The position numbers and the translations under genes are program-made. A stretch of 64,000 bases of DNA from Coprinus comatus. Lineage: Eukaryota > Basidiomycota > Agaricomycetes > Agaricales > Agaricaceae. Position 1 is the first letter of the stretch; every line of letters starts with the position of its first letter. The notes under the pieces are model-generated. The model ran no database searches. It had not been told where the DNA came from and saw only the letters and a list, made by a program, of their open reading frames with translations. Location of the stretch: the NCBI GenBank assembly GCA_034638255.1, contig JAWPGT010000058.1:81357-145356 (forward strand). The letters are read 5' to 3'. This document shows positions 3,192 through 59,751 of this stretch, in pieces.

Positions 3192-5089
3192 TCAAGCGTC
3201 ATTGTTTGGTTTAGACCTCAACTCGGAAGAATCAGAACGTAATTCACCTTCCTCCGAGTCCTCAGCACGATTAAACTGACCATCCTCCTGTTCCTTCAGA
3301 TACTCTTTCAGTATATCATTCCACGTCTTGTTGGTCTTTGATGTATGTCTCGGATACACCGGGGAACTGGACACTTTTGCCTTGTAGAATTCTGTCTTAT
3401 TGCTCATGGTTCCTTTATCAGCTTCGTATCCCCGCTGCATGATGATTTCGAGGGAAGTAGTGAGCATTAGAGAAAGTAGAAAGAGAGTTTAACAACATAC
3501 CCCAGCAACAGTAACCTTAGCACTACCATTTCCGGCTCTTTCATTCGGCCCGTGACCATATGAAACCCAAAAATCAATGGGAGAACCGTCGTTAATAAGC
3601 CAAAACCTATGTGAATACTTTCTTAACACCCAGAAATGGTTTCTATGAAACGACATACTCGATGGTGCTGCTATCATTTGTATCGTTTTGACCCGAATTT
3701 GACTTATCACTGTCCCAAAGAACCGTATTCTCCGAAACAGTCCATTTCTCAGAATCCTCAGTCCGTTTATTTTGGCATATAGCACCAGGTGTCAACAACC
3801 CAAACTCGCCCCAGTTAGATCCCACAACCTCAAAAGTCACTGACGTCCTATAAACTTCAGGATTCGCTGTGAGATATCGAAATGCATCCAACAATGGATC
3901 CGCATAACTCGAAATATCACCATGGCTCGACGTTCGAACAAGATTCCAGATTTCTATACAACCAAATTTTATAGCCTGGGAGTCGGATATAGCATGTGCA
4001 TGTGGACCTAAAATGGTTGTGTTGACCCATTTTGTAAAAAGTGGGTAAGAAGTTGGGTTTTGGAGGAATTCGGTAGCAAGTTGGTTGTTTCCACCAGTGA
4101 TGGAAGTCTTGTATTCTAACAGGATTTTGAAATGTTCATATTGCGCTTCTCTTTTGACGTTTGGGTCGTAATTTCCTTGAGCCATTATGCCACCGTAATA
4201 TGCGCGTATGTCGGCGTTGAATCGATTATTGACAGCGCTATCGCTATTTTTTGCGAACGCGAGCTGTTTGGCGTCATATAGTTGTAAGCAAGATGTTGAA
4301 CAGGAGAGAAAGAAAAAGATTTGAATGCATACTAATTGAAAACGTGAACCATATTGACACTCAACAACAACATGGGTTCCAAATGCCCTAAAGAAGTTTC
4401 TGTAAGCTTGCGCAGTCGCACTATCATTCTGAAACGGTTTCGGTAGCTTCTGGATCCCTTGCAATATGAGAACTCGTTCGCTAAGCATAATCGAATCACC
4501 AGTGAAGATGGCTGAGTATAGAGGACTACTGTGACTAAAAATCCCGTATTGGTTCCTATCGGGGAACCCCTTTTCGTACGTTGGTGCAATAGTCGATGCG
4601 GGTCCAGAGAAAGTACCATATTTCCCGTAAAGTGTATGATCGGTTTGAAACGCTTTATTGACTTCACTACCTGTAGTCCAGGTCTGGAAGTTTTCTTCCG
4701 TTCCTGTTCTAGTAGTAATGTTAACGGTGAGAGGAACGTTATACTGTACCCCGTCTAGCGAATGTAACTCGTTAGTAACCTGAAACATGAAAACTCAAAG
4801 CCATATGACTCACGTATTCCAATTTCCTTAGATAGATCAACGTCTGGGTCAATAAGTCTCATCGATCTAATGATACTATGAGAAATCTGATAATAACAAT
4901 TGTTCCATTAGACCCGATGCCTAGAGAATATGAAATCCGTAAGCTGAGGATGCATACATCGTTGGTATCAAATGGGGCGCTAGCTGTCAGTAAATTGATA
5001 GAGTATCCAAGAAAATTTAGAGCTGGGAGGGGCAAAGGCAACAGTGTCTGTTGGGAGGCAGCAACAGTTGTGTCACCACCGGTTTTCAT
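3192..5089 (-). CDS. MACPF-like pore-forming-type protein (gene B)
   Basis: Reading the minus strand, the exons are 5089-4958, 4886-4814, 4754-4333, 4263-3659, 3606-3501 and 3434-3192, giving 526 residues with intron positions matching gene A. The protein opens with the family motif LPLPALNFLGYSI and has FGTHVVVECQYGSRF at the end of exon 3, the MACPF-like signature. It continues with LINDGSPIDFW and a closing TWNDILKEYLKEQ. All splice phases fit and no internal stop is seen, so the gene looks intact. It faces gene A tail to tail, and its closest relative is the disrupted gene C, about 5.1 kb to the right at the 3' end. The acceptor of intron 2 was chosen by analogy with genes A and D, because the alternative upstream AG breaks the frame. 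Confidence 0.7.
3476..3807. repeat. Identical tract shared by MACPF genes B and C (copy 1)
   Basis: These 332 bases match 8556-8887 without a difference by eye (offset 5080). The tract covers the end of exon 4, a whole intron, exon 5 and part of the next intron. Sequence on both sides is clearly more divergent. Confidence 0.8.
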
Positions 5090-8303: not shown

Positions 8304-9415
8304 TCAACTGGAAGAATCCGAACCTAATTCACCTTCCTCCGCAACACGATTAAACGGACCATCCTCCTGTTCCTTCAGATACTCTTTCAGTATATCATTC
8401 CACGTCTTGTTGGTCTTTGATGTATGTCTCGGATACACCGGGGAACTGGATACTTTTGCCTTGTAGAACTCCGTCTTATTGTTCACGGTTCCTTTATCAG
8501 CTTCGTATTCCCGCTGCATGATGATTTCGAGGGAAAGTAGTGAGCATTAGAGAGGGTAGAAAGAGAGTTTAACAACATACCCCAGCAACAGTAACCTTAG
8601 CACTACCATTTCCGGCTCTTTCATTCGGCCCGTGACCATATGAAACCCAAAAATCAATGGGAGAACCGTCGTTAATAAGCCAAAACCTATGTGAATACTT
8701 TCTTAACACCCAGAAATGGTTTCTATGAAACGACATACTCGATGGTGCTGCTATCATTTGTATCGTTTTGACCCGAATTTGACTTATCACTGTCCCAAAG
8801 AACCGTATTCTCCGAAACAGTCCATTTCTCAGAATCCTCAGTCCGTTTATTTTGGCATATAGCACCAGGTGTCAACAACCCAAACTCTCCCCAGTTAGAT
8901 CCCACAACCTCAAAAGTCACTGACGTCCTATAAACTCGAGGATTCTCCGAGAAATATTGAAATGCATCCAACAATGGATCCGCGTAACTTGAAATATCAC
9001 CATGACTCGACGTTCCAACAAGATCCCAAATTCCTATACAACCAAATGCTATAGAGTTGGAATCGGACATAGCCTGTGAGTGGGAGCCTAAAATGGTTGT
9101 GTTGACCCATTTTCTGAATAGTGAATAAGAAGGTGGGTTCATTAGGAGTTCAATCGCAAGTAGTCTGTCTCCACCGGTTATAGAAATGACGCTTTGTAAT
9201 AAGTTTTGAAAGCGTTTATATTGTGCTTCTGTTTTGACGTTTGGGTCATAAGCTCCCTGAGACATTATGCCGTCAAAATGTGCGCGTATATTAGCATTGA
9301 ATCGATTATTGACAGCAATATCACTATTTTCTGCGAACGCAAGCTGTGTATAGTCATGTAACTGTCAGCAAGATGATACTGAAAAGGGAATTACATACTA
9401 ATTTAAAACGTGAAC
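8304..9415 (-). pseudogene. 3' half of transposon-split MACPF-like gene C
   Basis: This stretch holds the end of exon 3 (9415-9399), exon 4 from 9343, exon 5 and the last exon, which stops at 8304. It is a close copy of gene B, with the same introns and with the same LINDGSPIDFW and TWNDILKEYLKEQ blocks. The reading frame is open in each exon. The last exon differs from B by a small frame change near the stop that shortens the acidic tail. The gene is interrupted upstream by the 6.2-kb transposon, so a full-length product is not expected. The remaining 5' half is at 16293-17020. Confidence 0.75.
8556..8887. repeat. Identical tract shared by MACPF genes B and C (copy 2)
   Basis: This is the partner of 3476-3807. 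Identity covers intron as well as exon bases, which points to recent gene conversion or a very recent local exchange rather than selection on protein. Confidence 0.8.
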
Positions 9416-9422
9416 CATATTG

Positions 9423-9687
9423 TACGGTGCGCGGAATGTCCGTGGCTCAAATTCCCGCGCGCGACTTTCGGTACGTCACTTGTCACATAATGCCTGTGAC
9501 TTTTGATTATTGTTTCCATCCATCGATAGTCAGATCCTCACTTTTCAGACGACGAAAGTTGCGGAAAACGCGACAATTTAATTAGGTAGAATGTATATAG
9601 AACTATAATGGGTGTAAAGTATATAAAAAAGGAGCGTAAAGACGTGGAGAAATATGTAAATGACGGGTATTTCTTGAATTAAAAGTA
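9423..9687 (+). repeat. Left terminal inverted repeat of the kinase transposon
   Basis: 265 bases, reverse-complementary to 15383-15647. The one difference seen is T versus C in the GATTATTG/GATTATCG segment. Confidence 0.95.
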
Positions 9688-9763
9688 GTGCTACTAGCTA
9701 GTAAGAAATGAGAGACACGCGTTTAAGGAGGAAACAATCAAATGAATGGTAATGAACAGTTCA

Positions 9764-12040
9764 TTACTCTGGGATAGCCTCCAAGTCAGAGCCTGCTGTA
9801 TCTACATCACCCGAATTATTAACTGGTGTGTAAATGTCATTATCATCCTCTGGGAGGAGTGTAAGGACTATATCTTCGTGAAGGTTGAGACGGTGACAGA
9901 TATCACCACATTGGTGATCTCTAATAAAGCTATTGATTCCGGCCTTACCAAAGTCACCAATTCCGGAGTTCCTAGGAAAAGTAGTAAGTTGAATGTTTGT
10001 TACAAGTTCCAACAATAATATATATAAAAACTTACCCTTGCTCTGTATGTGTCATTGGATCGAAAATAACCAAGCCATTATGACCGTTAACAGTAGAAGG
10101 TGATCCTGGGTAATGGATATCATCCTCAGTTACAATTAGTATAGGATTTTTAAAGACGAAAATTACCTTGAATATCAGCAAAAATCAGGTTTCTTCCAGA
10201 ATGCCCATAGACAAAATGTATAAATGCATAAATGGTAGAATGCTGAAGATCAGTTTTACCCGAAGGATGGGAAAGTGTTCCACTAAAGCGCTGTATAGCA
10301 ATTGAACGCCGATGTTCTACAAGCCACATTAGTCCTTCACTCTCATAGGTATAATCACCAACTCCAGATGCTTGGCTAGGGCTTGCTTTGTGATCCTCAC
10401 ATAGAAGGAATGCATCAGAGAACCTGATGTCTAGAGAGTAGTATATTAGTAGCAGTAGGCAGATTAGACAGTAGAAACGTGACAAACGTTCATATACAGC
10501 AACCCCTTGCCGCTTGCAAAAATCATAAAAAGCATCAAGAAACCATTGACCTTGTCCAAGGCGAATGCATTCTGCTTTAATTGCTTCATTATGGGTACCA
10601 ACATCAATTTTCTCATCTTTAGCAGTATCCTCCTTCATCCGATAGAAGCGTTTTGCGATGTAATTGCTTCCCCACTGATTTACTGATGAGTTGACATCAC
10701 TTTCCAATTGGAGCTGTTTTTAAAAATTAATCCAATATGTAATATTTTAAACGGAACATATACTTACAGAATATACATGCTTCATTTCTCCCTTGGCAAT
10801 TTCTTGGGTAGAAATAGTGCCATTGATAGTTTTTGGATTTTCAGCCTCAGATAGAGTTACGGTACCATCAGTTTGGTTGATCTTGTAAACAATCTTTGTG
10901 AACGTGATCTTTGATGTATTTAAGGTCAAAGATTGGTGTGATATAACTTGGCGGCTAGATGATGGTCGGAAGCAAGACCCTACAAAGCTAGAACCTAATC
11001 AACAATCATCTAATCAATATTCGTCCTTGTTACAAATAAAGTAAAGTATAGACCATATACTCACCCTGAAGCCGTTGTTGTTTCCTTGGTTTGTTGAATA
11101 CACTAGAGCCACTTGATTTGCGTTTGCGGGTGGGAAAAGCAGACTCAACATTGTTTGCATTGCTTAAGCTTAGTCGTTTCTGGTACTAGTAAGAAAATCA
11201 GAATTATAAATGGTAATTAGATTAAGTAAAACACTTCTTACCAAATCTACGTGAATCAATGCCATAAGTGATACCAGAGGAGTTTTTGCATTCTTGAGAT
11301 ACCGATAGGTAGTTGGAACAGGAATATTATGAGTAGTTTGACTACTCAAAAATTCACCAAGTTCCATACCCATTGAACCACTTTCAAGAAGGCTATTACC
11401 ATAGAACCGAAGGGAAGTCTCATCTAGCTCAAGTGGCATAGATTCCGTTTTGGTCCATTCAACATTCAAATATCTTAAAATCTCCTTGTGAATATCTATG
11501 GTTAGAAATCATAATAAAAAATCTATGAGTAAAGTAATATATAATAAAAATAGTAGTTACATACCTCCAATAAATGTTGAGTATGTAAATGCACTATACT
11601 TGGTACCAAGTACAGCATCATCACTCCCAGATTTGGTACTTCGTCTATAAGTCCAACATACATTCGCATATGGCTCCCGAAACTTGTCTTGAGCCCTTTC
11701 TGAATGATTCTTCTCCTGTTTATGAAGTTCAGCTGTATTAAATGCATTTGATCGATGTGCAATATTCTGATAGGAAGAACCAGAAATTTGTCGAAACCTT
11801 TCTCCAAGCCTTTCATTTCTTTCATGTTGAGCATTAGAGACTTGGTTAAATGAGTGAGATAACACTAATAGAGTTTGAAGTCCGAATATAAAGTAAGAAA
11901 AAATATGTATATAATATATATTTTATCATACCTTGACTTGCGGTCACAATTGTGGGTGATTGTTGTGAATACGCATCAATACATACTTTATCATTACAAA
12001 CATGCTTATGTTGCATGTTTCGGAATGATTTACCACACAT
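9764..12040 (-). CDS. Alpha-kinase (MHCK/eEF2K type) encoded by the transposon
   Basis: Nine exons join in phase on the minus strand: 12040-11932 (minimum start), 11864-11565, 11495-11242, 11179-11065, 10994-10768, 10713-10488, 10430-10167, 10105-10036 and 9971-9764. They give 590 residues from M12040. The first exon has Cys/His pairs (CTMCGKSF...HKHVC) like a zinc knuckle. More Cys pairs (CEGCG) lie upstream at about 12140, so the true N-terminus is probably further 5' but its splice is unresolved. The last 255 residues are an alpha-kinase domain: YIAKRF with the likely ATP lysine (K356), HFVYGHSGRNLIFADIQG, LVIFDPMTHT, and GDFGKAGINSFIRDHQCGDIC with its Cys/His zinc site. Alpha-kinases phosphorylate Ser/Thr in helices. 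Its role in a transposon is unknown; it could be cargo or a regulator of transposition. Confidence 0.85.
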
Positions 12041-13657
12041 AGTGCACTGCGGCCACTTTGTCTAAAGTTATATCATGAATTGTTAGTATAGTTTTACAAT
12101 TGCGTAATATCCATGAGAGGGTATAAATGTCCACAGCCCTCACACGGTGTGCCGTTCTGTTGATTGTGTACCAAAGGCAATGACATCATCAATAAATAAA
12201 TGAATAGTAAAGGTAAAGCAAATGAGAAGTGTGACACAATTGGTAGGAAATTGGATACCAATTCCACAGCACTACCTTGCAATCTTTTATACCAATAATT
12301 GTTTTAACTTGTTTATCATATAGTTAATGCTCAAGATACCGGTATCAGTAAATTTACTAATAACAAGTCCTCCTATTCGGATATGAACAACTGATGACTC
12401 TCAAAAGTATAATGTAATCTTTAGTTGGTCTGGACTCTGATAAATATCAAAACAAGTACTACACGTGTCAATTGTTGATGACATACTTCAAGAATATACT
12501 AATTGTGATATATGACTGAGAATGTCCCATATTACAACCAATACTGCACCAATCGTCTCAGTTTTAGTACCAATGGAATGGCCTTAATGTGAGCATTCTA
12601 TACATGGTAGGGACATGGCATATGGTGCAGTATTGGTGATACACCTGGCACAGTAGTATATATATCTATATATCTATTTCATACCACTGTTCATCGTGTT
12701 AACTATACAAAATTACCATCATTGGAACCGGATTGTAAAGGGCTACGCATAGAATGTATTTAGAGGTTGATCTGTGCACTATTAGACATGTGACACAATT
12801 TTTTATTTTTATGGAGTACAAAAGAAGAATCACTTATAGCTCAGCCAATACCACACCGATTGTTACGTTTCTAGCATCGTTAAAAAGCCCCCGTTAACCG
12901 CATTATGGACGTGGTACACATGTGCTAATAGATAAAGATTTGAAACATTATCAAACTTTTAAAAACTTCTTTGTAGGGCTTCATATTATAGTCATAGAGT
13001 GTCTATGCAATACATATTGTGCAGCATTCGAATGGGGCTTACTAGAATAACAAGAGGAGCCTAAACATGCTGCAAACGGCCCAATATTAAGTGCACAACA
13101 ATAATTTTCATTTTTCCTATCATAGAGATTGATACATGTACCCATGGGAAATGGGGTCCTAATATTAACTCAAGTCATTGGTCAACTTAACACCGTTCAT
13201 GCTCTCTCCTCACGACACGTTATAACTTACAATAAAAACTTCATAATATGGTTACTGGTAGCCATCTTGTATAGTATAATATCCACAGACCGTAAAAGAG
13301 TTGAATGTTTAAAATCTATTAATTAAGCATATTTCTTATCTTTAGTCAAAAATCAGAATACTTCATGACAACATCACCTACAATACAGTCTGGTGCTAAG
13401 ACCACTATCAACCTGAAGCTACTATATAAGTAGTAACCCAGATAGTGACTCGTTCTTTAGCAATTCATATTTTCTCTATTTCTCCCTTTCCCTTCTTGCT
13501 CTTTTTCAATTTTTTTTCTCTTATTATTCATACTCTCACTCTTTTGTGTGCGCTTGTATCTCTCACACTCACACTTGTATGTTATTTTTTATCCACTTAT
13601 TATTTGAGCCTGATTTTTATATTCTAAATCCTTTTCTTTTGTTTATGCAAATTTGAA
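12041..13657. other. Central divergent promoter region of the transposon
   Basis: The left part (12041-12290) probably holds an unresolved first exon of the kinase gene, with candidate starts at 12189/12186. The rest is AT-rich, lacks a supported gene and should hold the promoters of both divergent genes. A 15-base inverted repeat, ACCAATACTGCACCA, occurs at 12537-12551 and in reverse at 12623-12637. Confidence 0.55.
12537..12637. repeat. Inverted repeat between the kinase and integrase genes
   Basis: ACCAATACTGCACCA at 12537-12551 is mirrored as TGGTGCAGTATTGGT at 12623-12637, with about 70 bases between. It could form a hairpin or be a paired protein site in the shared promoter region. Confidence 0.6.
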
Positions 13658-15346
13658 ATGTTGTCAAGTCTCGACTCTCAAATGCCAAATAACAATCAAA
13701 TTGGAAAGAATGGCTGGGGTGAAAAAGACATGTAAGTATAGTTTTTATATTATTTCTACTAGTTGTAAAACTCAAAATCTGTTGAAGACCCTAGTGATGA
13801 TATTCTACGAGATTACCTCACTAAGCTTTCAGTATTATCGCTTACTGTTGAAGAGAAGCTTGTGCGCTTGAAGGTTGAATTAAATGTTGACATTCGGTAT
13901 GTAACTTCTATTTCTTTATGTAACAGAATTCTGTTTTGACAATTATGTTTATACCATAGAAGAACAAAGTTCTATGAGCTTCAGAAGGACTTCCAAATTC
14001 CATCTGTTCGAAAACCATATTTACCTCAAGCTGTTCTTGACAATGCAGTAATTGATCAAGTTCATCGTGACATTAATCAAGCCAATGGACCAAATACAAT
14101 TAAAAGTATGCTTAAGGATCAGTCGATCTTTGTATCTCGGTATATTTATCTCTTATCTAATCTTTGATTTATTCTATTTTTGACAATCTTTATCCTGGAA
14201 CTTACTTATAGAGATCAAGTACAAGTGCTCATGCATCAATTTGCACATGAAGCCTTTTTTAAGAGAGATCCTGCCAACCGAACCCAAAAGAAAAAAGTAC
14301 CACGAAAGGCGCTAACATCTGTGGGACCATTTCGTGAGATATCTGCAGATGGGCATGAGAAACTAAACAGCCAGGCATTGCGGATGGGGGAGATTAGCTT
14401 ACCAATTTATGGATATAGGGACAAATGGTCTGGTTATGTTTTGAAGCTACTTGTTTTACCTGATTCACGGAATGCGGGTGTGCTTGGTCATGTTTTTCTT
14501 GATCTTCTTTCAGAATATGGAGGTAAAGTTATTAACGATCCTTAAGTTTATATACTTTAACTTATAGTTTTTTTGTTAGGTATTCCAGTGCAAATGACAA
14601 CAGACAAAGGATCAGAAATAGGTTGGCAGCATGGTATACAAGATACATTTCGGTAAGTCCTTCCAAGAAAAGCATTCATATTATTCTGACTAATTCTATT
14701 CAATTTTACAACAGAAAAGTTTGTGCTCCCAACCTCTGTACAGATACCTACCCTCCTTTTGTTACTGTCAAAAGTACTCATAACATTATTATCGAGTCAC
14801 TTTGGAAGTGGTTCCGTGAGAAAATGGGCTCAAATCTCAAGGATATCATCTTAGAAGGGAAGGAAAACAGGATAATCCAGTACCACAAGGAGACACATCA
14901 GTACGTTCTACTTCAAAACCCTTAAATGAATGAAGTACTAGTATATTTAATATACCTCACTCTGATACAGGCATTTATTCTACTGGATTTTTGTTCCAGC
15001 TATACAAGAGGAATTAGAGAGCTTCCGCACTTACTGGAATCAACACAAAATCCGACGGCAACAAAAAAAGATATTACCATCAGGACATACACCAAGTGAT
15101 GCATTTCACAACCACAAGTCTCATGGTATACGTTCATGGCTTATTACAGTACCGGAGGATGCTCAGGTTCACATGCGTTCTTCTTTGGAAGAGGAAGTTG
15201 GTAGTCGTGAGGAAAAAATGTCTTGGTTTCCCTCAGCATTTGATGATGTTGCGAAATTAGCATATGTTGAAATTGGCTCACCAAAGATTGATATTAGAAA
15301 TGCCTGGGAAGTATTCCATTTAATGGTACAGTGCTTGGATATATGA
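13658..15346 (+). CDS. DDE integrase-like transposase of the kinase transposon
   Basis: Seven exons fit with GT-AG borders and matching phases: 13658-13731, 13795-13896, 13960-14139, 14212-14522, 14580-14652, 14715-14900 and 14971-15346, giving 433 residues. After an N-terminal helical part, an integrase (rve-like) core is visible. The first Asp is in EISADGHEKL, the second in VQMTTDKGSE, and the Glu in NIIIESLWKWFREKMG, 42 residues after the second Asp. Then follow FYWIFVPAIQEELESF and TYWNQHKIR, typical of fungal integrase-core proteins found in Agaricomycetes. There is no reverse transcriptase, protease or gag in the element, so it works as a cut-and-paste DNA transposon gene. The inner ATG at 13658 was chosen because it is the first in-frame Met before exon 1's donor. 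Confidence 0.85.
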
Positions 15347-15382
15347 TAGAGTCTCTGTCTCATTACACTTGTTTCTTACTAT

Positions 15383-15647
15383 TACTTTTAATTCAAGAAA
15401 TACCCGTCATTTACATATTTCTCCACGTCTTTACGCTCCTTTTTTATATACTTTACACCCATTATAGTTCTATATACATTCTACCTAATTAAATTGTCGC
15501 GTTTTCCGCAACTTTCGTCGTCTGAAAAGTGAGGATCTGACTATCGATGGATGGAAACGATAATCAAAAGTCACAGGCATTATGTGACAAGTGACGTACC
15601 GAAAGTCGCGCGCGGGAATTTGAGCCACGGACATTCCGCGCACCGTA
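15383..15647 (-). repeat. Right terminal inverted repeat of the kinase transposon
   Basis: Mirror copy of 9423-9687. It ends in CCGCGCACCGTA just before the second CATATTG. Confidence 0.95.
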
Positions 15648-15671
15648 CATATTGACACTCAACAATAACAT

Positions 15672-16292
15672 TAGGGCTGCCGCCCGTACCGTATACGGTT
15701 ACGGCCGTATAATTTACGGTCATAATACGGCCTTTCCCGTACCGTAGCCGTACCGTATAATAAATATTTCAAGGTCGTTACGGTACGGTAAAGGACATCT
15801 TACGGTACGTACCGTACTTTTACGGTATACGGGTAAGTTTATCACCATCATTATTTCGATAAGGTCATTGAGCTGGTGTTGGCTTGGTTCTAACCCGGCG
15901 TTAACTTATTAAACATTCAAGACTCAATATATAGAGTTATAAACATAGAAATCAGATAAAAATACAAGTGTTGTTCTTGTAATTTTTTTTTAAATACTCT
16001 AGAAATAGTGGATGACTGTGCCATTGCGAGAGAGTTTATGTTACTGATTGAGGAGAGAGTGAGTGTCATGAATCGATGATGTTTCGACGTACCATTGATG
16101 CTATCACATGATGTCATGACCGACTACCGTCCATACGGCCGTCGACGGGCAAAAAATACGGTACAGTACGGTACACTCCGTACCGTCAACCGTACCGTAT
16201 TGAGGCTACTTGATCGCTCTTACGGTACGGTACCGTATACCGTATACGGGTGGCCCGTAAACCGTATTATACGGTTACGGGCGGCAGCCCTA
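15672..16292. mobile_element. 621-bp hAT-type MITE
   Basis: The ends are TAGGGCTGCCGCCCG and its reverse complement, and the copy is flanked by an 8-bp duplication AATAACAT at 15664-15671 and 16293-16300. TIRs beginning TAGGG with an 8-bp duplication are the hAT hallmark. There is no coding capacity. Both sub-terminal regions are packed with TACGGTAC/CCGTA repeats on both strands, likely transposase binding motifs. The middle (about 15840-16090) is ordinary AT-rich DNA. It sits in the same exon as the kinase transposon, nine bases from that element's duplication. Confidence 0.85.
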
Positions 16293-17020
16293 AATAACAT
16301 GGGTTCCAAGGGTCAGAAAAAAGTTCTTGTAAGCTTGCACAGTCGTATCTTCAATTCGAAAAGGTTTCGGTAGCTTCTGAATTGCGCTCAATATAGCCTG
16401 TTCTTCGTTGAGCCTAATCGAGTCGCCCGTGAACATGGCTGAGTAGAGAGGACTACTATGACTGAATATCCCATATTGGTACCTATCGAGGAACCCGTTT
16501 TCGTACGATGGTGCAATAGTAGTTGCGGGTCTAGAGATAGCACCGTACTTCCCATAAAGTGTATGATCGGCTTGGAATGCTTTATTGACTTCACTACCTG
16601 TAGTCCAGGTTTTGAAGTTTTCTTCCGTTCCTGTTCTAGTGGTAATATTGACGGTGTGAGGAACATTATAAAGTACTCCATCTAGTGAACGTAGCTCGTT
16701 AGTAACTTGAGATGAAAACTTAAAGACAGTGAAGGACCAAGGTCTGGGACTTACGTATTCCATTTTCGTTGGATTGGTCAACGCGTGGATCAATAAGTTT
16801 GCTGGTTCTAAGGATATTGCGAGAGACCTGTTAACTCGATCAGCATCCAGATCCGATGACTAGAGAATATGAAAACCGGAAGCTGAGAACTGAGGATACA
16901 TACACTGCTGATATCAAGAGGGCTAGTTGTCAACAAATTGATGGAATATCCAAGAAAATTCAAAGCTGGGAGGGGCAAAGCCGATAGTTTTTGTGACGCA
17001 GTGACAGTTTCTTCAGGCAT
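16293..17020 (-). pseudogene. 5' half of transposon-split MACPF-like gene C
   Basis: The start is at 17020. Exons 17020-16904 and 16827-16755 are followed by exon 3 from 16681, which is open down to the MITE at 16293. The opening motif LPLPALNFLGYSI and exon/intron layout match gene B. Exon 3 breaks in the codons of the GTHVI signature, and the gene resumes only beyond both transposons at 9415. Since the frame is otherwise open and the splice sites are intact, the gene was probably functional until the insertions. Confidence 0.75.
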
Positions 17021-34760: not shown

Positions 34761-35108
34761 TGTCAGGAATGCTCTAGACAGTCCCCAAGGTCAGTACTTA
34801 TTGTTGGTTGAGGTTAGAAGAGTTGTGGTTGGATATTCTCTTTGGAGTTCTGGACTTGTAGATTGTTTCCGCTTTCTGTGACATCACAATGTCACGTCAC
34901 ACGTTACTGAAGCGTCCTGCAGACACATGAAGACTCTCTAGTCTAATACAAGTGTCTGCAGGTGAGTAGTTAAGAAGTTATTGTATCTCTCTAGTCTAAT
35001 ACAAGTGTCTGCAGTGTTTGTGTTTTATCTCAGTCATTTCTTATCGGTTTCCTTCCATTCCTTTGTCATTGTGCTCGTCTCGTTGTCCTCTACGATCCTG
35101 CGATTACA
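34761..35108 (+). mobile_element. Solo LTR of the copia family found at 59392
   Basis: 348 bases, TGTCAGGAATG...GATTACA, collinear with the LTRs at 59392-59739 and 63654-64000 but more diverged at its right end. The flanks (AGGTC left, CAACA right) do not match, so it is not a simple insertion followed by LTR-LTR loss. Confidence 0.85.
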
Positions 35109-48395: not shown

Positions 48396-50611
48396 ATGGT
48401 CAACAACAGCAGATCCAACATTTCAACTGACACCGGAACAAGACAAACCAATAATCAAGAGGCTCACATGCAAAGATTCTCCAAGCCTTTGTCTTCCTTA
48501 AACAAGAAACAACTACTCGAGTTGGCGAACTACATCGAACTCCCAGAAGATGAGAACAACCCGAGGCTCACCGTTGTTATCTTAAGAAGAAACATCAAGA
48601 ATTATTTCAACGAAATACCGGAACTTAAGGAGAATCCAATCTACGTTGGACTCTTCCCAAAACCTAGAAGACCTGGTAGGCCAGCATCCAATAGGCCAAG
48701 GGTACCAAGGACAAACAACGCAGAACCCAATCCAAGGAACCAGACACCCCATGATACGCGAAGACCTCCGGCACCAACCATCGACCAAAACGATTCATCT
48801 GAAGAATCCGAATGGGGAGGAATCTCAAGCAGTCCCATCTCAACCCGGTCCAATTCGTCGACGGACTCATCCCCAGAAACACCAGATATACCTCGTCCGA
48901 CAACAGTAGTCAACACAACCCCAAATCCCAGTACTCAACTTCAAGACCAAACTACTACTGGACGACCCATAGCATATCAAGAACCCCAAAACCAAAACTA
49001 GACACAACCACCACAACGACATCGACAACAACAACAACGTTTCGATGTTTCTAACGCGACATCAACCCCGATAAACAACCTAGGGGACCCATTCGCAAGA
49101 CCAAGCAACCTCGGCAATGGCCCCCAACAAGGACCAGCACCAAACACAAACAATTCATCAGGCAGTCAAGCTCACAACTCCGGAAACTCAATTTCCACAA
49201 ACACGAATGGTAAGTCGATGTCTCCTATCCCAACTATCATACATTATACCGGCGCTCGTACGGGGGTATGCCAATTTGTCTACGGACCTTTGCCCACGGG
49301 CAATACTTTGTCATGCAGTATTTCATGTACTCAACCCACGGGCCACGATTTACTATCACATATACATATTTTACTGCATACGAGCAGAATACGTCCCAGA
49401 TAGGGGACACTTAAAATCTCCACATGTGATTACACACATACACCCAACCGACTGGGTCCATCTTCCCTTACGAGGGTCACCGAGCCCGAACAAGGTCATA
49501 CCCCCATTTCAAACATAAACCAATTCCGAGAGAATCAAACTTACAAATTACCCATAAATAAATAGATGTCTCCCTCTCCGACGTCAACAACAATGAACAC
49601 ATTGTCACCCAACGCGATCAAAGAGGTTACATCGAATTCACAACCGGACAACAATGTGACGAAGCACCCATAGAAATCCCAGACAATATTTGGGCCAGGT
49701 TCAGAAAGGGCAGAGGCTGGGAGACGCACATACCTTTGACATATCTGACAGACAGAAGATGTCTCTCCAGGGCCATCAACCACGTTGATAGCCAAGATGT
49801 TCGCATGGATTACAACGGGAATCTTACACTGACGGACAAACCTCTGAACGAGGCAGAAGAGGATAAATTGAATTTCGAGGAATGGCACCAAGCATGGAGC
49901 CGCCTTTTATATATGATAAAATCCATGAACTCCCACAAATTATATACAGCATGGAATGCTCACTTCGAACGAATACTCAATACCAATGACAAATCCCAGA
50001 ACTGGGATATTTGGTTGACTTATGATATTGCTGTCAGAAGACAAAGCCGGCAATACGCCCTAGACCCAGCTGCCCTCCAGGAAAAGATCTGGAAAACTGC
50101 TGAGTCACAGTGTATTTACGCACATTTAGTTAAATCTAATCACCAGCTTAATACTCAGAACCAAAGACCGACATACGACAACCTCCCTTTCCAACACAAC
50201 CAACCCAACAACCACTACAATAACTATAACCCATATCAAGTCGGACCTCCACGTCAACAACAATGATACAACCCTTACCAGCGACAGAGCTCCAATAACT
50301 TTCGGAGGAATCAAGGATCCTCAAACACAAATAACACATGGAAACAACCAAGTCGGTGTTTTCTCTGTGGAGATAAAAACCACCAATCCGTTGTCTGCAC
50401 ATCATCATTCATGGTCAACGGCAACCCAATCCTACTCCCACAAGGACCCAATCCGAGGAGTACCAGGTTCGACAGTGAAGGAAAATTCTATTGCTACAAA
50501 TTCAACGGGGTCGTGGGCTGCCAACAACCACCAGCCCCAAACCATGGAGTTCACCAATGTACACTGTGCCGATCAACCGATCACGGAGCACAATCATGCA
50601 AATCTGTATGA
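48396..50611 (+). CDS. Gag-like protein of DIRS/Ngaro element 2
   Basis: The first part has a SAP-like helix pair (LSSLNKKQLLELANYIELP, RRNIKNYF), then a Pro/Asn-rich region. A GTAAGT...AG intron (49210-49565) joins it in phase to a second exon with a capsid-like helical block (LNFEEWHQAWSRLLYMI). The C-terminus has zinc knuckles CFLCGDKNHQSVVC and CTLCRSTDHGAQSC. Stops at 48999-49001 (TAG) and 50264-50266 (TGA) interrupt the frame. Expression therefore needs readthrough, or the copy is dead. The end overlaps the RT frame by about 245 bases in another frame, suggesting frameshifting. Confidence 0.65.
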
Positions 50612-52271
50612 TTCTCTCCCAGTGATCACCCCACTTGTACATAACGAATGGAAAAATATTTTACAATGCCTCAACCTATTAGACACCTTCCCCGACATCC
50701 CATCCAGCATTGAGTTCGGTTTCGATATGGGAGTTAAAACTCCCATCAATTCAACCTACACTCCGAAAAACCATAAATCAGCCATAGACCACCCCAACAT
50801 CATTGAAAAGTACATCGAAAAAGAACTTACTGCCAGTCATTACAGCGGCCCATACTCAAAATCACAACTCCACCAAAAAATCGGAGAATTCTGCTCATCC
50901 CCTCTCGGAACCGTTCCCAAAGCCAATAGCCAAGACGAATTCAGGGTTATTCAAGATTTCTCATTCCCACGAAATGATAGAGAAATTAAGTCAGTGAATG
51001 AAGACATAAACCCTGATGAATTCACCTGTAATTGGGGCTCATTCACCAAAGTCTACAAATTGGTAGAAACAGCTCCACCGGGAACCCAAGCCGCGACAAT
51101 GGACGTAGACGCAGCCTTCCGGTGTTGCCCAATTTCACCAGCTCAACAGAGATACTTCATCGTTTCCTGGAACGAAAAGTTCTACATCGATCATTGTGCC
51201 CCATTCGGGGCAAGCAGTTCTGGAGGCGTTTTCGGGAGATTAGCGGATGCAATGTCCGAAATCATTCGAAGACATACAAACTCACCTTGTGAAAACTGGG
51301 TAGACGATTTCTTGTTCTTAAGATACCTAATGGAAAAACTCGGAAACTCCTCACCAGAACCAAAGTCATACACATATGATCTCGACCTCATAGAGAAGAT
51401 TGCAGCACCACTTGGATGGCCATGGAAACCATCCAAGACAGTCCCATTTGCATCTGTCTTTCGCTACCTAGGTTTCCTATGGGACCTTGAAGCCAAAACC
51501 GTTAGCATCCCAGAGGACAAACGAGAGAAATACTTAAGAAGGTTATCATCCTGGCCAAGCTCCTTAAACAAATTCACAAAACGCGAAGCTGAAACACTAC
51601 TTGGCACCTTAGTACACTGCTCCCTCGCACTCCCCGATGGCAGATCTCGTTTACCCACATTATCAAAATTCGTACACTCTTTCAAGAGTTTGTCACCCTT
51701 CGCTAGGAGATTTCCAAATGCAACCATCAGGAGCGACATAATCTGGTGGATAAACAACTTACAAGATAGCACCTGCTCCTCCAAAATCATCCCACCACCC
51801 CCACCATGTCTAATTGAATTCTGGGTAGATGCATCCACATCATGGGGAATCGGTGTGATATTCGGAAATGAATGGAAATCCTGGAAGTTAAAGAAAGGCT
51901 GGGACAACCACCCAGAACACACAATCGGATGGGCTGAAATCATAGCAATCGAGTGCGGTCTCCGCCTAGCAGTACACAAAAGATTCGACAACACTCACTT
52001 TGTTTTGAAATCGGACAACACGGGCGTTATCGATGCGATCAACAACGGAAAATCCCGCAGTCATGAACAGAATGTCATCCTACAACACATCACAACACTG
52101 CTTCGGGTCAATTCCCTATGGTTGACCTCAGTGTATGTTCAATCCAAAGACAACTTAGCAGATAGACCCTCTAGAGGTCTAATCCCAGACTCCTTTACTC
52201 ACTGCACGAATTCTTTCACCATAACCCCCTTCCTTAGTCCATATCTCATCGACGACGATTTCATTACATAA
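50367..52271 (+). CDS. Reverse transcriptase-RNase H of DIRS/Ngaro element 2
   Basis: A 634-residue open frame; the true start may be an inner Met near 50544. RT motifs: SPLGTVPKANSQDEFRVIQD, ATMDVDAAFRCCPI (first Asp), PFGASSSGGVFGRLADAM, and NWVDDFLFLRYL (catalytic WVDD). The RNase H domain follows with FWVDASTSWGIGVIF, IGWAEIIAIECGLR, LKSDNTGVIDAINNG and the closing KDNLADRPSRG, giving the acidic catalytic set. It copies the element RNA to DNA. All catalytic residues look intact. Confidence 0.9.
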   Translation: MEIKTTNPLSAHHHSWSTATQSYSHKDPIRGVPGSTVKENSIATNSTGSWAANNHQPQTMEFTNVHCADQPITEHNHANLYDSLPVITPLVHNEWKNILQCLNLLDTFPDIPSSIEFGFDMGVKTPINSTYTPKNHKSAIDHPNIIEKYIEKELTASHYSGPYSKSQLHQKIGEFCSSPLGTVPKANSQDEFRVIQDFSFPRNDREIKSVNEDINPDEFTCNWGSFTKVYKLVETAPPGTQAATMDVDAAFRCCPISPAQQRYFIVSWNEKFYIDHCAPFGASSSGGVFGRLADAMSEIIRRHTNSPCENWVDDFLFLRYLMEKLGNSSPEPKSYTYDLDLIEKIAAPLGWPWKPSKTVPFASVFRYLGFLWDLEAKTVSIPEDKREKYLRRLSSWPSSLNKFTKREAETLLGTLVHCSLALPDGRSRLPTLSKFVHSFKSLSPFARRFPNATIRSDIIWWINNLQDSTCSSKIIPPPPPCLIEFWVDASTSWGIGVIFGNEWKSWKLKKGWDNHPEHTIGWAEIIAIECGLRLAVHKRFDNTHFVLKSDNTGVIDAINNGKSRSHEQNVILQHITTLLRVNSLWLTSVYVQSKDNLADRPSRGLIPDSFTHCTNSFTITPFLSPYLIDDDFIT

Positions 52272-52352
52272 TTTACCTTCCCACGATGCATTTGACATAC
52301 ACGTAGCATCACAGAGTAGTTCCAACTTAGATACCATCCACAATAAATAGTA

Positions 52353-53441
52353 ATGCCCCCCTTCTTACCACGTTTTATCCCATCCCCTCAATTCCTACAA
52401 ACCAATAATGCCCATAACGAGAGGCCAATCATCCCACTACGACCATCCTCCTTAGTAGGCCCCGAAGACTTCAACACCGAAACCGATATGAACATTGTCA
52501 AAGCCTTAAAATCTAGTTGGGCTACTTCTACAACAAATGGCTACAGACGTTCAATTCAAAAATTCCACCAATTCTGCGACACCCATGGTATTCCCCCAGA
52601 GAAACAGACACCATCATCCGAATATTTATTATGTGCCTTTGCCACCGAGTCTCTGGGTTCCCTTTCTGCAACAGCGGTTAACAGCCGGATTTCCGCCATG
52701 AGAGCTTGGCACACCTTCAATGACTGGCACTGGTACAGTGGCGCTAGATTAAAGCAAGTCTTACGAGGATGTAAAAACCTTGCACCCAGAGACAATGCCC
52801 ACATATGGAAGAGACATGTCACACTCGATGCCCTCAAATCACTAGCAAAACATTTACACACGAATAACAGTGAAGATGCAGCCATATTGGCTTGTGCATG
52901 TACAGCTTTCTGGGCTCAATGTAGACTTGGCGAACTATTACCAACATCCGGCCAAGATTTATCAACAACCGAACGCCCATCAAAAAATGACATTGAATCA
53001 CTAACTTCACCTTCAAAAATGTCATGGAATCTCTTCATTCCCAAGACCAAGACTGATAGGAAAGGACAGATGGTAGTTCTATCAAAACAAATCTACTCAC
53101 CAGAAACCGACCCGATCCAGACAATGAAATCCTTCCTAGACAAAACAGCCAATATGCAAAGATCATCCCCACTATTCTCGTTCATGCGGGGAGGCCAAGT
53201 TTTGACACTCACTAAACACAGATTCATCAAAAGATGTAACGAGATCTGGAAAAAAACTGGCCACAAAAACTGCACCGGACACTCCTTCAGGATCGGAGGA
53301 ACAACACAACTCCTCTTATCCGGTGTCCCTCCAGATGTAGTCAAAACGACAGGACGTTGGTCGTCAGATGCCTTCTTAAAATATTGGAGATCAGTGTTAA
53401 AACAAGAGCGTAGCATGTATGCTAAGGTAGGTACGACTTAG
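52353..53441 (+). CDS. Tyrosine recombinase of DIRS/Ngaro element 2
   Basis: A 362-residue open frame. The N-terminal SAM-like domain (SSWATSTTNGYRRSIQKFHQ) binds DNA. The catalytic domain has CRLGELLPTSG with the first Arg (about 190), GHSFRIGGTTQLL with the H-x-x-R pair (about 309-312) and GRWSSDAFLKYWRSV with the nucleophile Tyr (about 343). It joins the circular cDNA to the genome without target duplication. It is intact. Confidence 0.9.
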   Translation: MPPFLPRFIPSPQFLQTNNAHNERPIIPLRPSSLVGPEDFNTETDMNIVKALKSSWATSTTNGYRRSIQKFHQFCDTHGIPPEKQTPSSEYLLCAFATESLGSLSATAVNSRISAMRAWHTFNDWHWYSGARLKQVLRGCKNLAPRDNAHIWKRHVTLDALKSLAKHLHTNNSEDAAILACACTAFWAQCRLGELLPTSGQDLSTTERPSKNDIESLTSPSKMSWNLFIPKTKTDRKGQMVVLSKQIYSPETDPIQTMKSFLDKTANMQRSSPLFSFMRGGQVLTLTKHRFIKRCNEIWKKTGHKNCTGHSFRIGGTTQLLLSGVPPDVVKTTGRWSSDAFLKYWRSVLKQERSMYAKVGTT

Positions 53442-53648: not shown

Positions 53649-56600
53649 CTATGTTGAGGACATATTATTTGAGCGCTTGGCAGTGCTATATGTAGGATTA
53701 GAAAACTCCAACCCGTAATAGTTATCACGGAAGTATTCAAACTTCACACGTCCGAGATTCTTCGTGAGAAGATCAGCAGGGTTCTCAGTACCTGGGATAA
53801 AATAGAGCTGAACCTTCTTTTCATCAATTACTTGACGAATGAAGTGGAAAATGATGTCTATGTGTTTTGATCTCTTTTCGACGGCAGGGTTTTGCGCGAT
53901 AAAGAGAGAGCCCATATTGTCTCCACAAATATCCATTTGTTCATTGTTATGCAAACCAAGTTCAGTCATTAGGCTTCTGATCCAGATAGACTGACGACTA
54001 CAATCGGAAATAGCCATGTACTTAGCCTCTGTGGACGATAACGCGATAGTCTTCTGTGATCGACTAACCCAGGCTACCGGGCAGGATGCAACAGTGGACA
54101 GATAACCAGTTTGGGATCTTCGAGTAGAAGGATCACTAGCCCAATCAGAATCACTGTAAGCAATGAAGCCCTCATTATCAGAACCATTAAGCGTCATTCG
54201 GTATTCCCGAGTCGCTAGTAGGTATCTGCAAATGTAGAGAGCTCTACGCAAATGTTCTTCCGTAGGGTTATGAGAATGTTGACTAAGCTTAGTCACAGCG
54301 AACGAAATGTCCGGACGCGTGCCAATAGCAATGTACAACAGTGATCCGATCACCTGTTGGTACCTAGAATGGATGGAGGAGTTGATCGGTTTGTCGTTAG
54401 GAACTGGATAGTACCCTTCTGGCAGCGGAGTTCGCGCCGGTTTGGTATCACGGTCTGAGCCAGTGATTTTAAACCTTTCCAGGATCTTTTCTAAATAAGC
54501 ACATTGATCTAGATAGATCTTTCGATTTGCTCGATCTCTCCTGATGCGCATACCGAGAAATTCTTTGACTTCTCCAAGGTCGCGGCATTCCCACTTTTTC
54601 ATGAACTCTCCTTTAAGCTTTTTGAGCAAGGCGGAGTCATTTCCCATAAAAAGTACGTTGTCAACATACACGACAGCAATGACAAACTTGCCATCTTTTT
54701 GACGATAAATATATATACCGGCATCGGATTCACATCGCTTGAAGCCTAGTTTGTTCATGGAAGATGCCATCTCCTTCCACCAGGCCAAGCCGGCTTGTTT
54801 AAGGCTGTACAATGCACGTCGTAACCTCCACACCATATGTTCCTTGCCCTTAAGTTTGAAACCTTCGGGTTGATCCATATAGATTTCCTCATCCAGTTTG
54901 CCATAGAGATATGCTGTCTTTACATCAACAGACTCAATGTCCCAGTCTTCAAGGGCGGCTAACCTGAGCAGGATTCGAGCGGACTCATATCGTACTACTG
55001 GAGAAAATAATTCATCAAAATCGATGCCCTCGACTTGAGAAAATCCTTTAGCAACTAGTCTAGCACGTTTGCGACCGTCACTCTTTTCATTAAAGACCCA
55101 TCTATTTTTTACGGTTTTCCTTCCTTCTGGAAGTTTCACCAACTCGTAAACTTCTCGCTTTTTAAGCGCTGCTAGTTCTTCGAGACAAGCTTCGTGCCAG
55201 TGTTTACGTTCCTCCGGATTCAATTTTACAAGATCACGGAATTGCTCAGGAACTGTAGTTGAACTCGCTTTTGCCAATAAAAATTTCATCAATTCTAATC
55301 CCCCTTCCTTAGTTATCCGTTGAATCTTGCAATCTGCATCTTCTTCCATTGCGTCAGGGTTTTGTTCCCTCGCATATCCCCTTGAGGCATCCTCGTGTTG
55401 TCTGCGTATTTCATCATGACGTTCTCGGATTTCCTCGGGTGGAATTGGACGTGGATCTGCTTTGGGGCGATCTCGTTGATTACGGATTCTAAAATCGTGT
55501 CCACGGAGACGAACTCTCCCCTGAGGTGGTAGAGGTTCATTGTGATTATAGTCTCGTAGGATCTCAGACGGATGTGTTCTCTCCCCATAAACGTTACCTT
55601 CTCTAAACGGAACAAACTTTTCTCGGCCAGAACGGCGAGGTAAAGGTTCAACTGGTCTAGCAGGTCGTTCAGGTGATGGAGAAATGGGACGGGTGGAGTC
55701 AGGTCGAGGAGTAGGACTCGGACTCAGGTGACAAATAGGTGATTCGGGATCAGCATATGATAATGCGTCATCATCATCTTCATCAGTGACTTCCTCAACT
55801 GTTGTTTTCCTAGGAGCAGGTTTGCTCGGACCAGGAACAGGAGGTTTTTGAGAAGTAGATGGTCCAGGAATCGGACCTTGCGGTCTAGGCGGTAACGGTG
55901 TTCTATCACTGTCGTCTTGTCGAGATGTGTCCATAGGATCATCAGGATAAAGATCAGGTGTAGTATCCTCATCATCTTCATCAGACGCCAGAGGAGGAGG
56001 ATTTATTTTGGGGTTTTTAGAAGAACCGGAGTCCTTACATTTTTCGTGATCTGGCTTGCATTTGGGATACCAGCCCTCATCGAAAATAGCTGTTTTTGCA
56101 GTATAAATAATGTTTCCCTTTTGATGTCACATGAATGTAAAGTTAGCGCCATTGTAACCAAGGAAGATCATTAATTCAGATCTGGGAGATAATTTGTCAT
56201 CCCTTGATTCCTTTGGAATGAAAACATAAGCTGCACAGCCAAACACGTGAAGCTCAGATAAATCTGGCTTTTTCCCTGTTACCATTTCCATGGGAGTTTT
56301 CCATTCAAGACGTTTGATGGGAGTTCGATTATAACAATGAACTGCCGTGTTAAGGGCAAATTCCCACCAAGAATCTGGTAAGCATGCAGTAAGTCGCATG
56401 GCTTGCGCCTTTTCCTGAAGTGTGCGGTTCAGTCTTTCTGCTCTACCGTTCTGCTGGTGTATATGTGGTGCAGACGTCTCGTGTACTATCCCTTTTGAGT
56501 GAAGGAATTCCTCAAATTGTTTAGAGACATATTCACCACCATTGTCTGTCCGGATTCGCTTAATCGTTTTACCAAATTGTTTTTCCTCAAAGGCACAAAA

Positions 56601-58145
56601 TCTTTCAAGTGCCGCAAAGGCATCAGATTTGGCTCGTAAAAGGAGGATCCAGGCATGGCTAGAATAGTCATTATAGAACGTCATTGCCCACTTGTACTTG
56701 TGATACGAGGCAACGGGGAATTCTAGAAGATCACTGTGGATCAATTCTAAAAATGACTTCGCTCGTGTCGAAGAAGGATGATGTGCATCATCGGACATTT
56801 TGCCACGAGCACAACCATCACATACTTGACGAGAGATAGGAATATCAAACTCGGGTACTTTTTCCGAGTGTTTTGGGAGTTGTCGCAATATTTCCTTTCC
56901 AGGATGCGCCAATCGACAGTGCCAAAGATCATAAACAGAAAGTTTCGATGCGCAATAAGATAGCACCTGGTTTGCAGTATAGTGACGCACCAACCTAGTG
57001 TGAACATGGTGGAGGGCATCTTCCATAACTTTAAATGTTGTGATGCGTGATGCATGCATGAACAATTTTCCGTTTGAACGAAATATGTTGGTTCTCTTTA
57101 AATTTGACTCACTCCTCATTCCTTGCAGCCATAAGGCGCCAGGTGAAATGATTCTAGTGGAGAGAGACTCTAAGTAATAGACCGGATACAGTGGAGTCGT
57201 TCTAGTGACTCCGTCTACTTCGTGTTGGAAGAGAACTTTCCCACGACCTTTTATGGTTATGAGGTTGTTGCTGGCGTCTCTGACACCACCAAATTCTCCA
57301 TTCTCTAACTCGATAAAGTCAGCTATATGCGGTGTGCAATTAAAGCTAGCGCCTGAATCAAGGAGCCAAATAGCAGACTCTCTAGCATAATTAGGTTTAC
57401 TTTTATCTTCACAGAAGTTGCATAAGCAATCATCAAGATGATTCGACGTTTCATCACTATTCTTAGGATCTTTTAAATATTTCGTCGGTAAGACAAAACG
57501 ATCACAAGTAGAAACAGGAGAAGGGATCATATTCAAAACGGGAGTACAAACAGTAGTAGATGTAAAAAGAGAACTCGTAATAGTCCGACTAATGTCCGGC
57601 AGTCCAATATGGCGCTCTAGAACATGGGGTCTGATGGAGCCATTGGTTCGTCTCCCCAAGTTTGTTTGGGGGCATCTCTGTAAGTTCCACTTAGTAATGA
57701 AGAATTCTTGAGAGAAGAAAGGAACGTACTCATTGTACCATCCATCATCGACCTCGTAGTCCACATCTGCGTCGAAGTCCGGATCATTCATATAGGCATC
57801 AGCCTCAGCGATCGCATCGGGAACATCGGAAGGTGGGACATAAGAAGGAGACTGAGATCGACACGTGGGGGACCCAGGCGTAGAAACCGAAGACGAATCA
57901 ACTTCCTCTTCAGGAAGGATTGTAGCAACCATCGCATCAAGGGATGGTGGAGGTGACGGGGGAGAGGGTTCAGCCGGGCCGAAGCCAAGGCGAGCACCCA
58001 TCCTTTCGAAGACCTCTGCCTTCTTTTTCTGGTACCGGGTACGACCGACCAGGTGTCCAACCGGAGGAAGAAGAGTGGCACGAGGAGCAACATAAGGCTC
58101 AACTCCGTGCACGACAACTTCATCAGCAGCCTTTTTCAAGGCCAC
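53649..58145 (-). pseudogene. Copia pol polyprotein with stop and mutated RT active site
   Basis: The frame runs 58145-56130, then TGA (56127-56129), then on to 53649 in the same frame. Protease: AIWLLDSGASFNCTPH. Integrase: zinc domain (HCRLAHPG...CDGCARGK) and the D-D-E core (LIHSDLLEF, TFYNDYSSH, RTDNGGEYVSKQFEEF). A low-complexity acidic linker (SDEDDEDTTPD, EEVTDEDDDD) follows. RT: WDIESVDVKTAYLYGKLDEE and VYVDNVLFMGN, in which the second Asp of the usual YVDD is Asn. RNase H: AYSDSDWASDPSTRRSQTGY and ALSSTEAKYMA, ending with NPADLLTKNLGR. Confidence 0.9.
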
Positions 58146-58154
58146 TGCCTTGAG

Positions 58155-59204
58155 TCAGGGATCAGTAGTCTTCATCCTCTCAACGAGAGAACGAGTGGAG
58201 GAAGGTTTGTTAGTAGGAGTCGTGAAGGACTCCAGAACAGCGGGTGACAGGATCATGTCGACATTACCATCTTCTCCTTCGGCTTTGTTTGCCTTGTTGC
58301 CTCCACGTTTTCCGCGTCGATGCTTCTTCTTTTTATCCTTATCCCCCCCAGAAGCATCACCGGAACCGGAGTTCTGGTTCTGATTTGGTCTTGAATTAGA
58401 CCCAGAAGCGTTCTGTTGTTGTTGTTGGGGCTGCTGAGGAGCGCGACCGGAGGGTTTAGAATAGGGCTTTGCACCCTTGTAGTTTTTAATGCCGGTAGAA
58501 GCGGCACGAGAAGCAGAAGCAGCTCCACAGGAATCTTGCCATGCACCCATAATTGCATCGGAGACGATCTGAACTGTTAGGTTCGAGAGGGAATTACCAT
58601 ATTGAACGAGTAGGGCAGCACGAGTGGCACTCCATTGAGGAGAAATGCGAGTCATCAACATTAACGCACGGAGGATACCGGGAACATTGATTGGGGGCGA
58701 GGCTTGCTCGAGCTGCGTGAAATAATTTCGGAAGGTAGAGATCTCCTTGGAGGGATCATTCACACCAGATAACCGGAAAGAATCTGCAGAAGCATACAGC
58801 TCGTAGGCTGCACCTGCCGAAAAAGTGCCGTACACTCGTCTCAGGTGTGTCCAGAGACCGTCGGAGGTTGTTTCACCATGCCTAAGCATGTCATCGCTCA
58901 ATCGGGAATTTAACATCCCAAGAGCAAATGCCTCACAATTATCGAACTTTCGAATTTCATCGATGTTCGTGGGGGGTACCATAGCAGTGGTGCCAGTTGC
59001 GGGGGAACCACCAACAGCTGCAGGCCTTGCGGCGCTGCTGTCGATCATTCTCGCTACACACCATCCATCCATGTGGATCATATTGGCAATTGACAAAACA
59101 CGTGCTTCCCACACTTGGTAGTTAGCAGTGCCTGTGAGAACCGGGATCGAGGGGATCAAAAGATGCCATAGAATGTTTGGAGATGAAAATCTACAACAAA
59201 ACAT
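58155..59204 (-). pseudogene. Copia gag of the minus-strand element
   Basis: Gag core blocks GTANYQVWEARVLSIANMI, GLWTHLRRVYGTFSAG and FRNYFTQLEQASPP match copia gag (UBN2-type). The tail is Gln/Asn/Gly- and Lys-rich and has no CCHC knuckle. The apparent original start (an ATG at about 59165) is out of frame by one base, so the start is frameshifted. The TGA at 58155-58157 separates it from pol, which continues in the same frame. Confidence 0.8.
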
Positions 59205-59391: not shown

Positions 59392-59739
59392 TGTCAGGAA
59401 TGCTCTAGACAGTCCCCAAGGTCAGTACTTATTGTTGGTTGAGGTTAGAAGAGCTGTGGTTGGATATTCTCTTTGGAGTTCTGGACTTGTAGATTGTTTC
59501 CGCTTTCTGTGACATCACAATGTCACGTCACACGTTACTGAAGCGTCCTGCAGACACATGAAGACTCTCTAGTCTAATACAAGTGTCTGCAGGTGAGTAG
59601 TTAAGAAGTTATTGTATCTCTCTAGTCTAATACAAGTGTCTGCAGTGTTTGTGTTTTATCTCAGTCATTTCTTATCGGTTTCCTTCCATTCCTTCGTCAT
59701 CGTGCTCGTCTCGTCGTCCTCTACGATCCTGCGCTTACA
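59392..59739 (+). repeat. 5' LTR of the plus-strand copia element
   Basis: TGTCAGGAATG...GCGCTTACA. It contains two direct copies of CTCTAGTCTAATACAAGTGT around 59570 and 59620. Confidence 0.92.
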
Positions 59740-59751
59740 GGTTATGGGCCC
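59740..59751 (+). promoter_or_regulatory. Primer-binding site matching the initiator tRNA-Met anticodon arm
   Basis: GGTTATGGGCCC directly follows the LTR. It is complementary to the anticodon stem-loop of eukaryotic initiator tRNA-Met (GGGCCCAUAACC), as in Drosophila copia, which primes from a cleaved half tRNA. Confidence 0.75.

Follow-up and report, generated by a model that had tools for sequence, protein, structure and literature searches.

A Coprinus comatus transposon pairing a DDE integrase-type transposase with an alpha-kinase, probably of the IS3EU superfamily

We analysed a stretch of 64,000 nucleotides of the Coprinus comatus genome (termed the window), in which a 6225-bp unit spanning positions 9423–15647 carries a transposase gene and an alpha-kinase gene. 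Our preferred reading, to which we assign a probability of about 0.7, is that this unit is a cut-and-paste transposon, most probably a TET-less member of the IS3EU superfamily, with a two-gene core of transposase and alpha-kinase, the latter aiding the element. We are highly confident that the element is real and that kinase and transposase form a standing pair, one that appears ancient and maintained by selection.

Results

An inverted-repeat search identified two arms of 267 nt (9421–9687 and 15383–15649), which are 100% complementary and separated by 5695 nt; a perfect inverted repeat of such length is not due to chance. As the outer 2 nt of the arms belong to the target duplication, the terminal inverted repeats (TIRs) measure 265 bp, the left one starting with TACGG (9423–9687, plus strand) and the right one terminating in CCGTA (15383–15647, minus strand). 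The element is bordered by the target-site duplication (TSD) CATATTG, at 9416–9422 on the left and, as read from the sequence, at 15648–15654 on the right. Flank comparison revealed a related empty site: a paralogue lying in tandem with the interrupted locus has one CATATTG (4350–4356) and is 89.7% identical to the left flank over 1360 bp and 74% identical to the right flank over 1099 bp, the latter beyond a second, smaller insertion. As the paralogue matches both flanks and has CATATTG once, all 6225 bp entered the locus together, as a single unit. The perfect-looking 265-bp TIRs and the target duplication of the original prediction were thereby confirmed.

The transposase gene (13658–15346, plus strand) comprises seven exons (13658–13731, 13795–13896, 13960–14139, 14212–14522, 14580–14652, 14715–14900 and 14971–15346) joined by GT–AG introns, encodes 433 amino acids and is open throughout in the window copy, in line with the intact, spliced DDE integrase-like gene proposed from the sequence. 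The exon borders of this gene and of the kinase gene are predictions from our own reading of GT–AG sites. Reading and Pfam analysis (rva_4, PF24764, E 8.4e-14) indicated a DDE integrase-type protein with the catalytic triad D165, D231 and E274, kept in 119, 120 and 118 of 121 aligned proteins, respectively, the remainder being gaps and one N. The closest relatives (50–52% identity) belong to Agaricales, among them Leucocoprinus, Coprinellus, Ephemerocybe and Coprinopsis, in keeping with a mushroom-type host, and a sequence search of the PDB gave no match at E 1.

The alpha-kinase gene (9764–12189, minus strand) is arranged head to head with the transposase gene across an intergenic space (12190–13657) in which no frame longer than 79 codons was seen. 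Nine open exons (12061–11932, 11840–11565, 11495–11242, 11185–11065, 10994–10768, 10713–10488, 10430–10167, 10105–10036 and 9971–9764) could be delineated, with the kinase domain (PF02816, E 9.1e-27) encoded within 9764–10713; both the Pfam gathering score and the fold place the protein in the alpha-kinase family. Exon 1, starting at about 12189, is shortened by 97 bp at 12099/12100 relative to a near-identical copy on another contig (C1), whose kinase gene has 10 exons and 645 residues and where the 97 bp form the 3′ part of exon 1 together with its splice donor. Because a further copy (C90), aligning unbroken to kinase residues 1–55, retains the exon-1 coding part that is gone from the window, this difference is a deletion in the window copy and not an insertion in C1. 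The earlier description of an intact spliced kinase gene is therefore not confirmed: the other nine exons are open, and exon 1 has lost its end and its donor.

The predicted kinase protein consists of a cysteine-rich amino-terminal part, a ubiquitin-like middle, for which Foldseek matches were no better than E 0.035, and the carboxy-terminal kinase domain. For the cysteine-rich amino terminus, which was not folded alone, nothing stood out in the fold search, and structure prediction without an alignment reached a mean predicted local distance difference test (pLDDT) score of only 32.8. A promoter scan using patterns made for bacteria was uninformative. Across 33 aligned kinase rows the conserved Lys was kept in 30, the Asp of ADIQ in 25, the Asp of FDPM in 26 and the zinc Cys in 23 each, rows without a given residue showing mostly gaps, so that the ATP-binding Lys, the catalytic Asp residues and the zinc-binding His and Cys are found in the family; the catalytic residues are those presumed for alpha-kinases in general. 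The ratio of nonsynonymous to synonymous substitution rates (dN/dS) of the kinase domain was 0.11 between element families A and B, which indicates purifying selection on the domain between these two families, while the middle region is under weaker constraint (0.33 and 0.65). The conserved residues and the selection together suggest that the kinase is probably an active enzyme.

We next consider the other copies in the 35.7-Mb genome, where the searches scored the best candidates alone and counts are thus those of loci found; contigs are labelled C58 (the window), C1, C86, C12, C82, C90, C9 and C19. Searches with the kinase domain and with PF02816 gave four loci (C58, C1, C86 and C12), and the integrase search gave six (the same four, C82 and C90). 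All four kinase loci adjoin an integrase of this lineage, and all six integrase loci adjoin a kinase or a kinase remnant, which supports the proposal that the kinase is a standard component of the transposon. None of the alpha-kinase loci found lies outside the elements, and there is hence no indication that a resident host gene was captured in a single event, a possibility that had been named as a refutation.

The aligned blocks of C1 and the window copy are 99.7–99.8% identical, and movement was therefore recent. C1 is without one A in integrase exon 1, a loss that shifts the reading frame if no other acceptor is used; its left TIR is missing the outer 80 bp. A second family is represented by C86, with a TIR of 425 nt at 96% and head-to-head genes, and a third by C12, with a TIR of 87 nt at 94% and two genes that are open as far as they align. 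Decay has left C82 and C90 with the integrase and only the first, cysteine-rich kinase exons; the C90 integrase is interrupted by an insertion of ~8.2 kb. Near the expected rest of the C82 kinase gene lies a perfect palindrome of 349 nt, spaced by 63 nt (L055, 4816–5576), and a stretch of 60–64 bp that is 93–97% identical to the end of the C90-splitting insertion occurs three times in the window (35048–35108, 59679–59742 and 63941–64000), with L007 8548–8611 listed alongside.

Both ends could be defined for five elements, three of which (window, C86 and C12) carry both genes. The other two, C9 (2.5 kb) and C19 (1.2 kb), have C12-type ends and are absent from the kinase and integrase match lists; C19, read whole and searched with tblastn, holds neither gene, and C9 was read at its ends only. 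Judged on these features both look like non-autonomous derivatives. Copies with the same TIRs lacking the kinase had been expected to count against the kinase as a standard component, and two short kinase-less elements do exist, but their TIRs are those of the C12 family and no integrase was found in them either. A PF24764 match on C85 was rejected as a further element, as we read its surrounding frames as reverse transcriptase and integrase of a retrotransposon, with no kinase detected at this locus.

Relatives of the kinase were detected in Mycena, Favolaschia, Pholiota and Schizophyllum, with the cysteine-rich start common to all those having full amino termini. Kinase and integrase matches were paired by species and contig size with one contig shown per cluster, a procedure that stops short of proving adjacency. 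By this measure eight of the 33 kinase matches (Mycena, Favolaschia) were placed on a contig with one of 118 integrase matches, a number unchanged whether 43 or all 118 integrase rows were used, and none of the 33 fitted by size a contig of another species; 31 of them come from species with an integrase match. In Mycena crocata, kinase and integrase bear consecutive locus tags (965583 and 965584).

In the trees of kinase and integrase alike, the window copy and C86 are sisters with a support of 100, and the majority of pairs from Mycena and Favolaschia cluster; P0015 is discordant, whereas P0050 from the same contig is concordant. A first Mantel test on 11 pairs yielded r = 0.70 (64 of 20000 permutations), and the eight other-species pairs in it, including doubtful pairings, gave r = −0.17 (16059 of 20000). 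After this result and the tree had been seen, the Mycena galericulata partner was changed from P0015 to P0050 and the second Favolaschia pair (contig 2337621) was dropped, resulting in r = 0.978 for 10 pairs (0 of 20000) and 0.891 for seven other-species pairs (6 of 20000). With no such selection of pairs, families A, B and C plus five small-contig pairs gave r = 0.979 (12 of 20000), and the five small-contig pairs alone gave r = 0.353 (3799 of 20000). Overall, kinase and integrase distances are correlated across families, with the signal mainly from the deeper splits; the suggested co-divergence thus found support in the revised pairs and the deep splits, and none in the first other-species test.

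With respect to published transposons, the parts available of Kojima 2025 (PMC12730594) describe TET-bearing IS3EU families from seven rust species and Tuber indicum, all with transposase and alpha-kinase in opposite orientations, the rust families having 6-bp TSDs and TAYGG..CCRTA termini. For IS3EU in general, the accessible text of Kojima and Bao 2023 (PMC10045372) gives TA..TA termini and TSDs of usually 6 bp. The termini of our elements follow this pattern, with TACGG..CCGTA in the window, C12 and C9, TATGG..CCGTA in C19 and, one left base off, TACAG..CCATA in C86. An alternative delineation with a 5-bp duplication and GTACGG..CCGTAC termini suits the window and C12 and was discarded, as C19 and C90 carry T and not G ahead of TATGG/TACGG. 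The kinase gene lies opposite to the transposase gene in the window, C1 and C86, as in the TET-bearing families. A TET/JBP gene between the two genes was not found, and none of 17 TET/JBP matches in the genome falls on a contig of these elements. TSD length apart, this makes a TET-less IS3EU family the most probable placement of the element. The 17 matches themselves lie on 16 contigs, and other TET-bearing transposons are likely present in the genome.

Our literature search for an alpha-kinase inside a transposon, which did not extend to Repbase Reports and most subscription papers, returned PMC12730594 alone. The passage from that paper contradicts the original prediction that no eukaryotic superfamily with this gene pair had been described.

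Turning to the surroundings, tandem MACPF-like genes are located at 3643–4788 and 8723–9265 (PF01823, E 1.1e-8 for the first), and the transposon sits within the second, paralogous locus. The smaller insertion in the right flank measures ~621 bp (15672–16292; region 15664–16300), has the ends TAGGGCTGCC..GGCAGCCCTA and an 8-bp duplication AATAACAT, and is absent from the paralogue; we take it to be hAT-like, judged on its ends and duplication length. Further along the window, positions 50367–53441 hold what looks like a retrotransposon of the DIRS type, in which a frame for reverse transcriptase/RNase H precedes one resembling a tyrosine recombinase, each scoring weakly in Pfam, and long frames at 53649–59204 and 59842–62817 read, by eye and without a family search, as copia-type polyproteins.

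Discussion

The ends and duplications suggest that the transposase would cut at the long TIRs and insert with a stagger of 5–7 bp. The kinase, presumably active, would phosphorylate either its own transposase or a host silencing or repair factor, and the cysteine-rich and ubiquitin-like parts may direct it to this target. A role in transposition itself is favoured by the strictness of the pairing, and a role against host control by the TET gene that the published relatives add. We weigh these two targets about equally, and a direct action of the kinase on the transposition machinery is a tentative proposal somewhat short of even odds.

Several observations weigh against our preferred reading. 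Within the genome, the window copy has a damaged kinase, stops interrupt the two genes of C86, where N also replaces one catalytic D, and C12 carries transposase and kinase on the same strand. In the comparison of families A and C, the dN/dS is 0.41 for the kinase domain and 0.65 for the middle, at high dS. In other species, just eight of 33 kinase matches could be assigned to a contig with an integrase match, and two of the correlation tests, on the first set of other-species pairs and on the five small-contig pairs, were low. Finally, the TSDs are 7 bp in the window, C12 (CCATCAG) and C19 (CCCCAAT), 6 bp in C86 (AGTGTT) and 5 bp in C9 (GTAGG), compared to the usual published 6 bp, and the placement in IS3EU was made from termini, gene pair and orientation as published and not from a tree with IS3EU proteins.

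The alternative that survives best is that the kinase acts on the host and not on the transposase, countering silencing or modifying repair as has been proposed for the TET/JBP genes of related elements. Such a target may exist, with a likelihood comparable to that of the transposase; the ubiquitin-like fold, which could hint at it, is a common one with Foldseek matches of E 0.035 or worse, and the TET/JBP matches of the genome lie away from these elements. It appears improbable that the kinase is passive cargo, derived from a host gene that an ancestral element picked up and of no use to its carrier. The recent movement of the window copy, evident from its perfect TIRs, despite a cut kinase exon 1 would suit inert cargo, as would the weak constraint on the middle region, but the deletion may postdate the insertion, or the protein may have come from another copy. 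Moreover, purifying selection acts on the kinase domain, whose catalytic residues are kept in most relatives, every integrase locus found retains a trace of the kinase even where the gene orientation has changed (C12), and the same pairing is published for rust relatives (PMC12730594, in the part available). A superfamily apart from IS3EU, so far undescribed and combining an integrase-type transposase with a kinase, to which the variable TSDs of the five elements and the lack of solved transposase relatives might point, is very unlikely, given that TACGG..CCGTA fits TAYGG..CCRTA, that gene pair and orientation are as published for IS3EU (PMC12730594), and that the TSDs of IS3EU are usually, not always, 6 bp (PMC10045372).

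A conserved kinase in a DNA transposon makes it testable whether phosphorylation controls the element's own movement or host silencing. Three papers (PMC4469406, PMC5295586 and PMC4150398) list alpha-kinases either as an expanded family of rusts or with the rust genes called pathogen-associated, and the last of them gives one rust protein as pathogen-associated and fast-evolving. These papers accord with the proposal that patchy kinase expansions stem from transposons, the comparison being with rust papers and not with rust genomes, and the alpha-kinase expansions in fungal gene catalogues, including the pathogen-associated rust protein of PMC4150398, may accordingly consist of transposon genes. 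A bolder extension, speculative and with the odds somewhat against it, is that a fungal transposon lineage predating the split of mushrooms and rusts has had the kinase from the start as an indispensable partner of its transposase, that the kinase controls transposition or defeats host silencing by phosphorylation for which the cysteine-rich and ubiquitin-like parts find the target, and that the rust expansions are largely transposon genes. As the pair is already in print in one passage, our finding extends a subject and does not open a new one; new relative to the published pair are the cysteine-rich and ubiquitin-like parts of the kinase, the TSDs of 5–7 bp and the one same-strand family.

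Compared to known systems, the element resembles the TET-bearing fungal IS3EU families, as far as the available part of PMC12730594 describes them, in its oppositely oriented transposase and alpha-kinase, TIRs longer than 30 bp and TAYGG..CCRTA termini, and differs in that no TET/JBP gene was seen, in its TSDs of 5–7 bp, in the same-strand family C12 and in its mushroom-type host. With IS3EU/GingerRoot it shares a DDE integrase-like transposase and TA..TA termini, its TSDs of 5–7 bp lying near the usual 6 bp, whereas an alpha-kinase goes unmentioned in the available text of PMC10045372. In fold alignments its kinase is 14–22% identical to the solved alpha-kinases MHCK-A, eEF2K, TRPM7/ChaK, ALPK1 and the Entamoeba alpha-kinase; unlike these, it is joined to a cysteine-rich amino terminus and a ubiquitin-like part and is encoded by a transposon.
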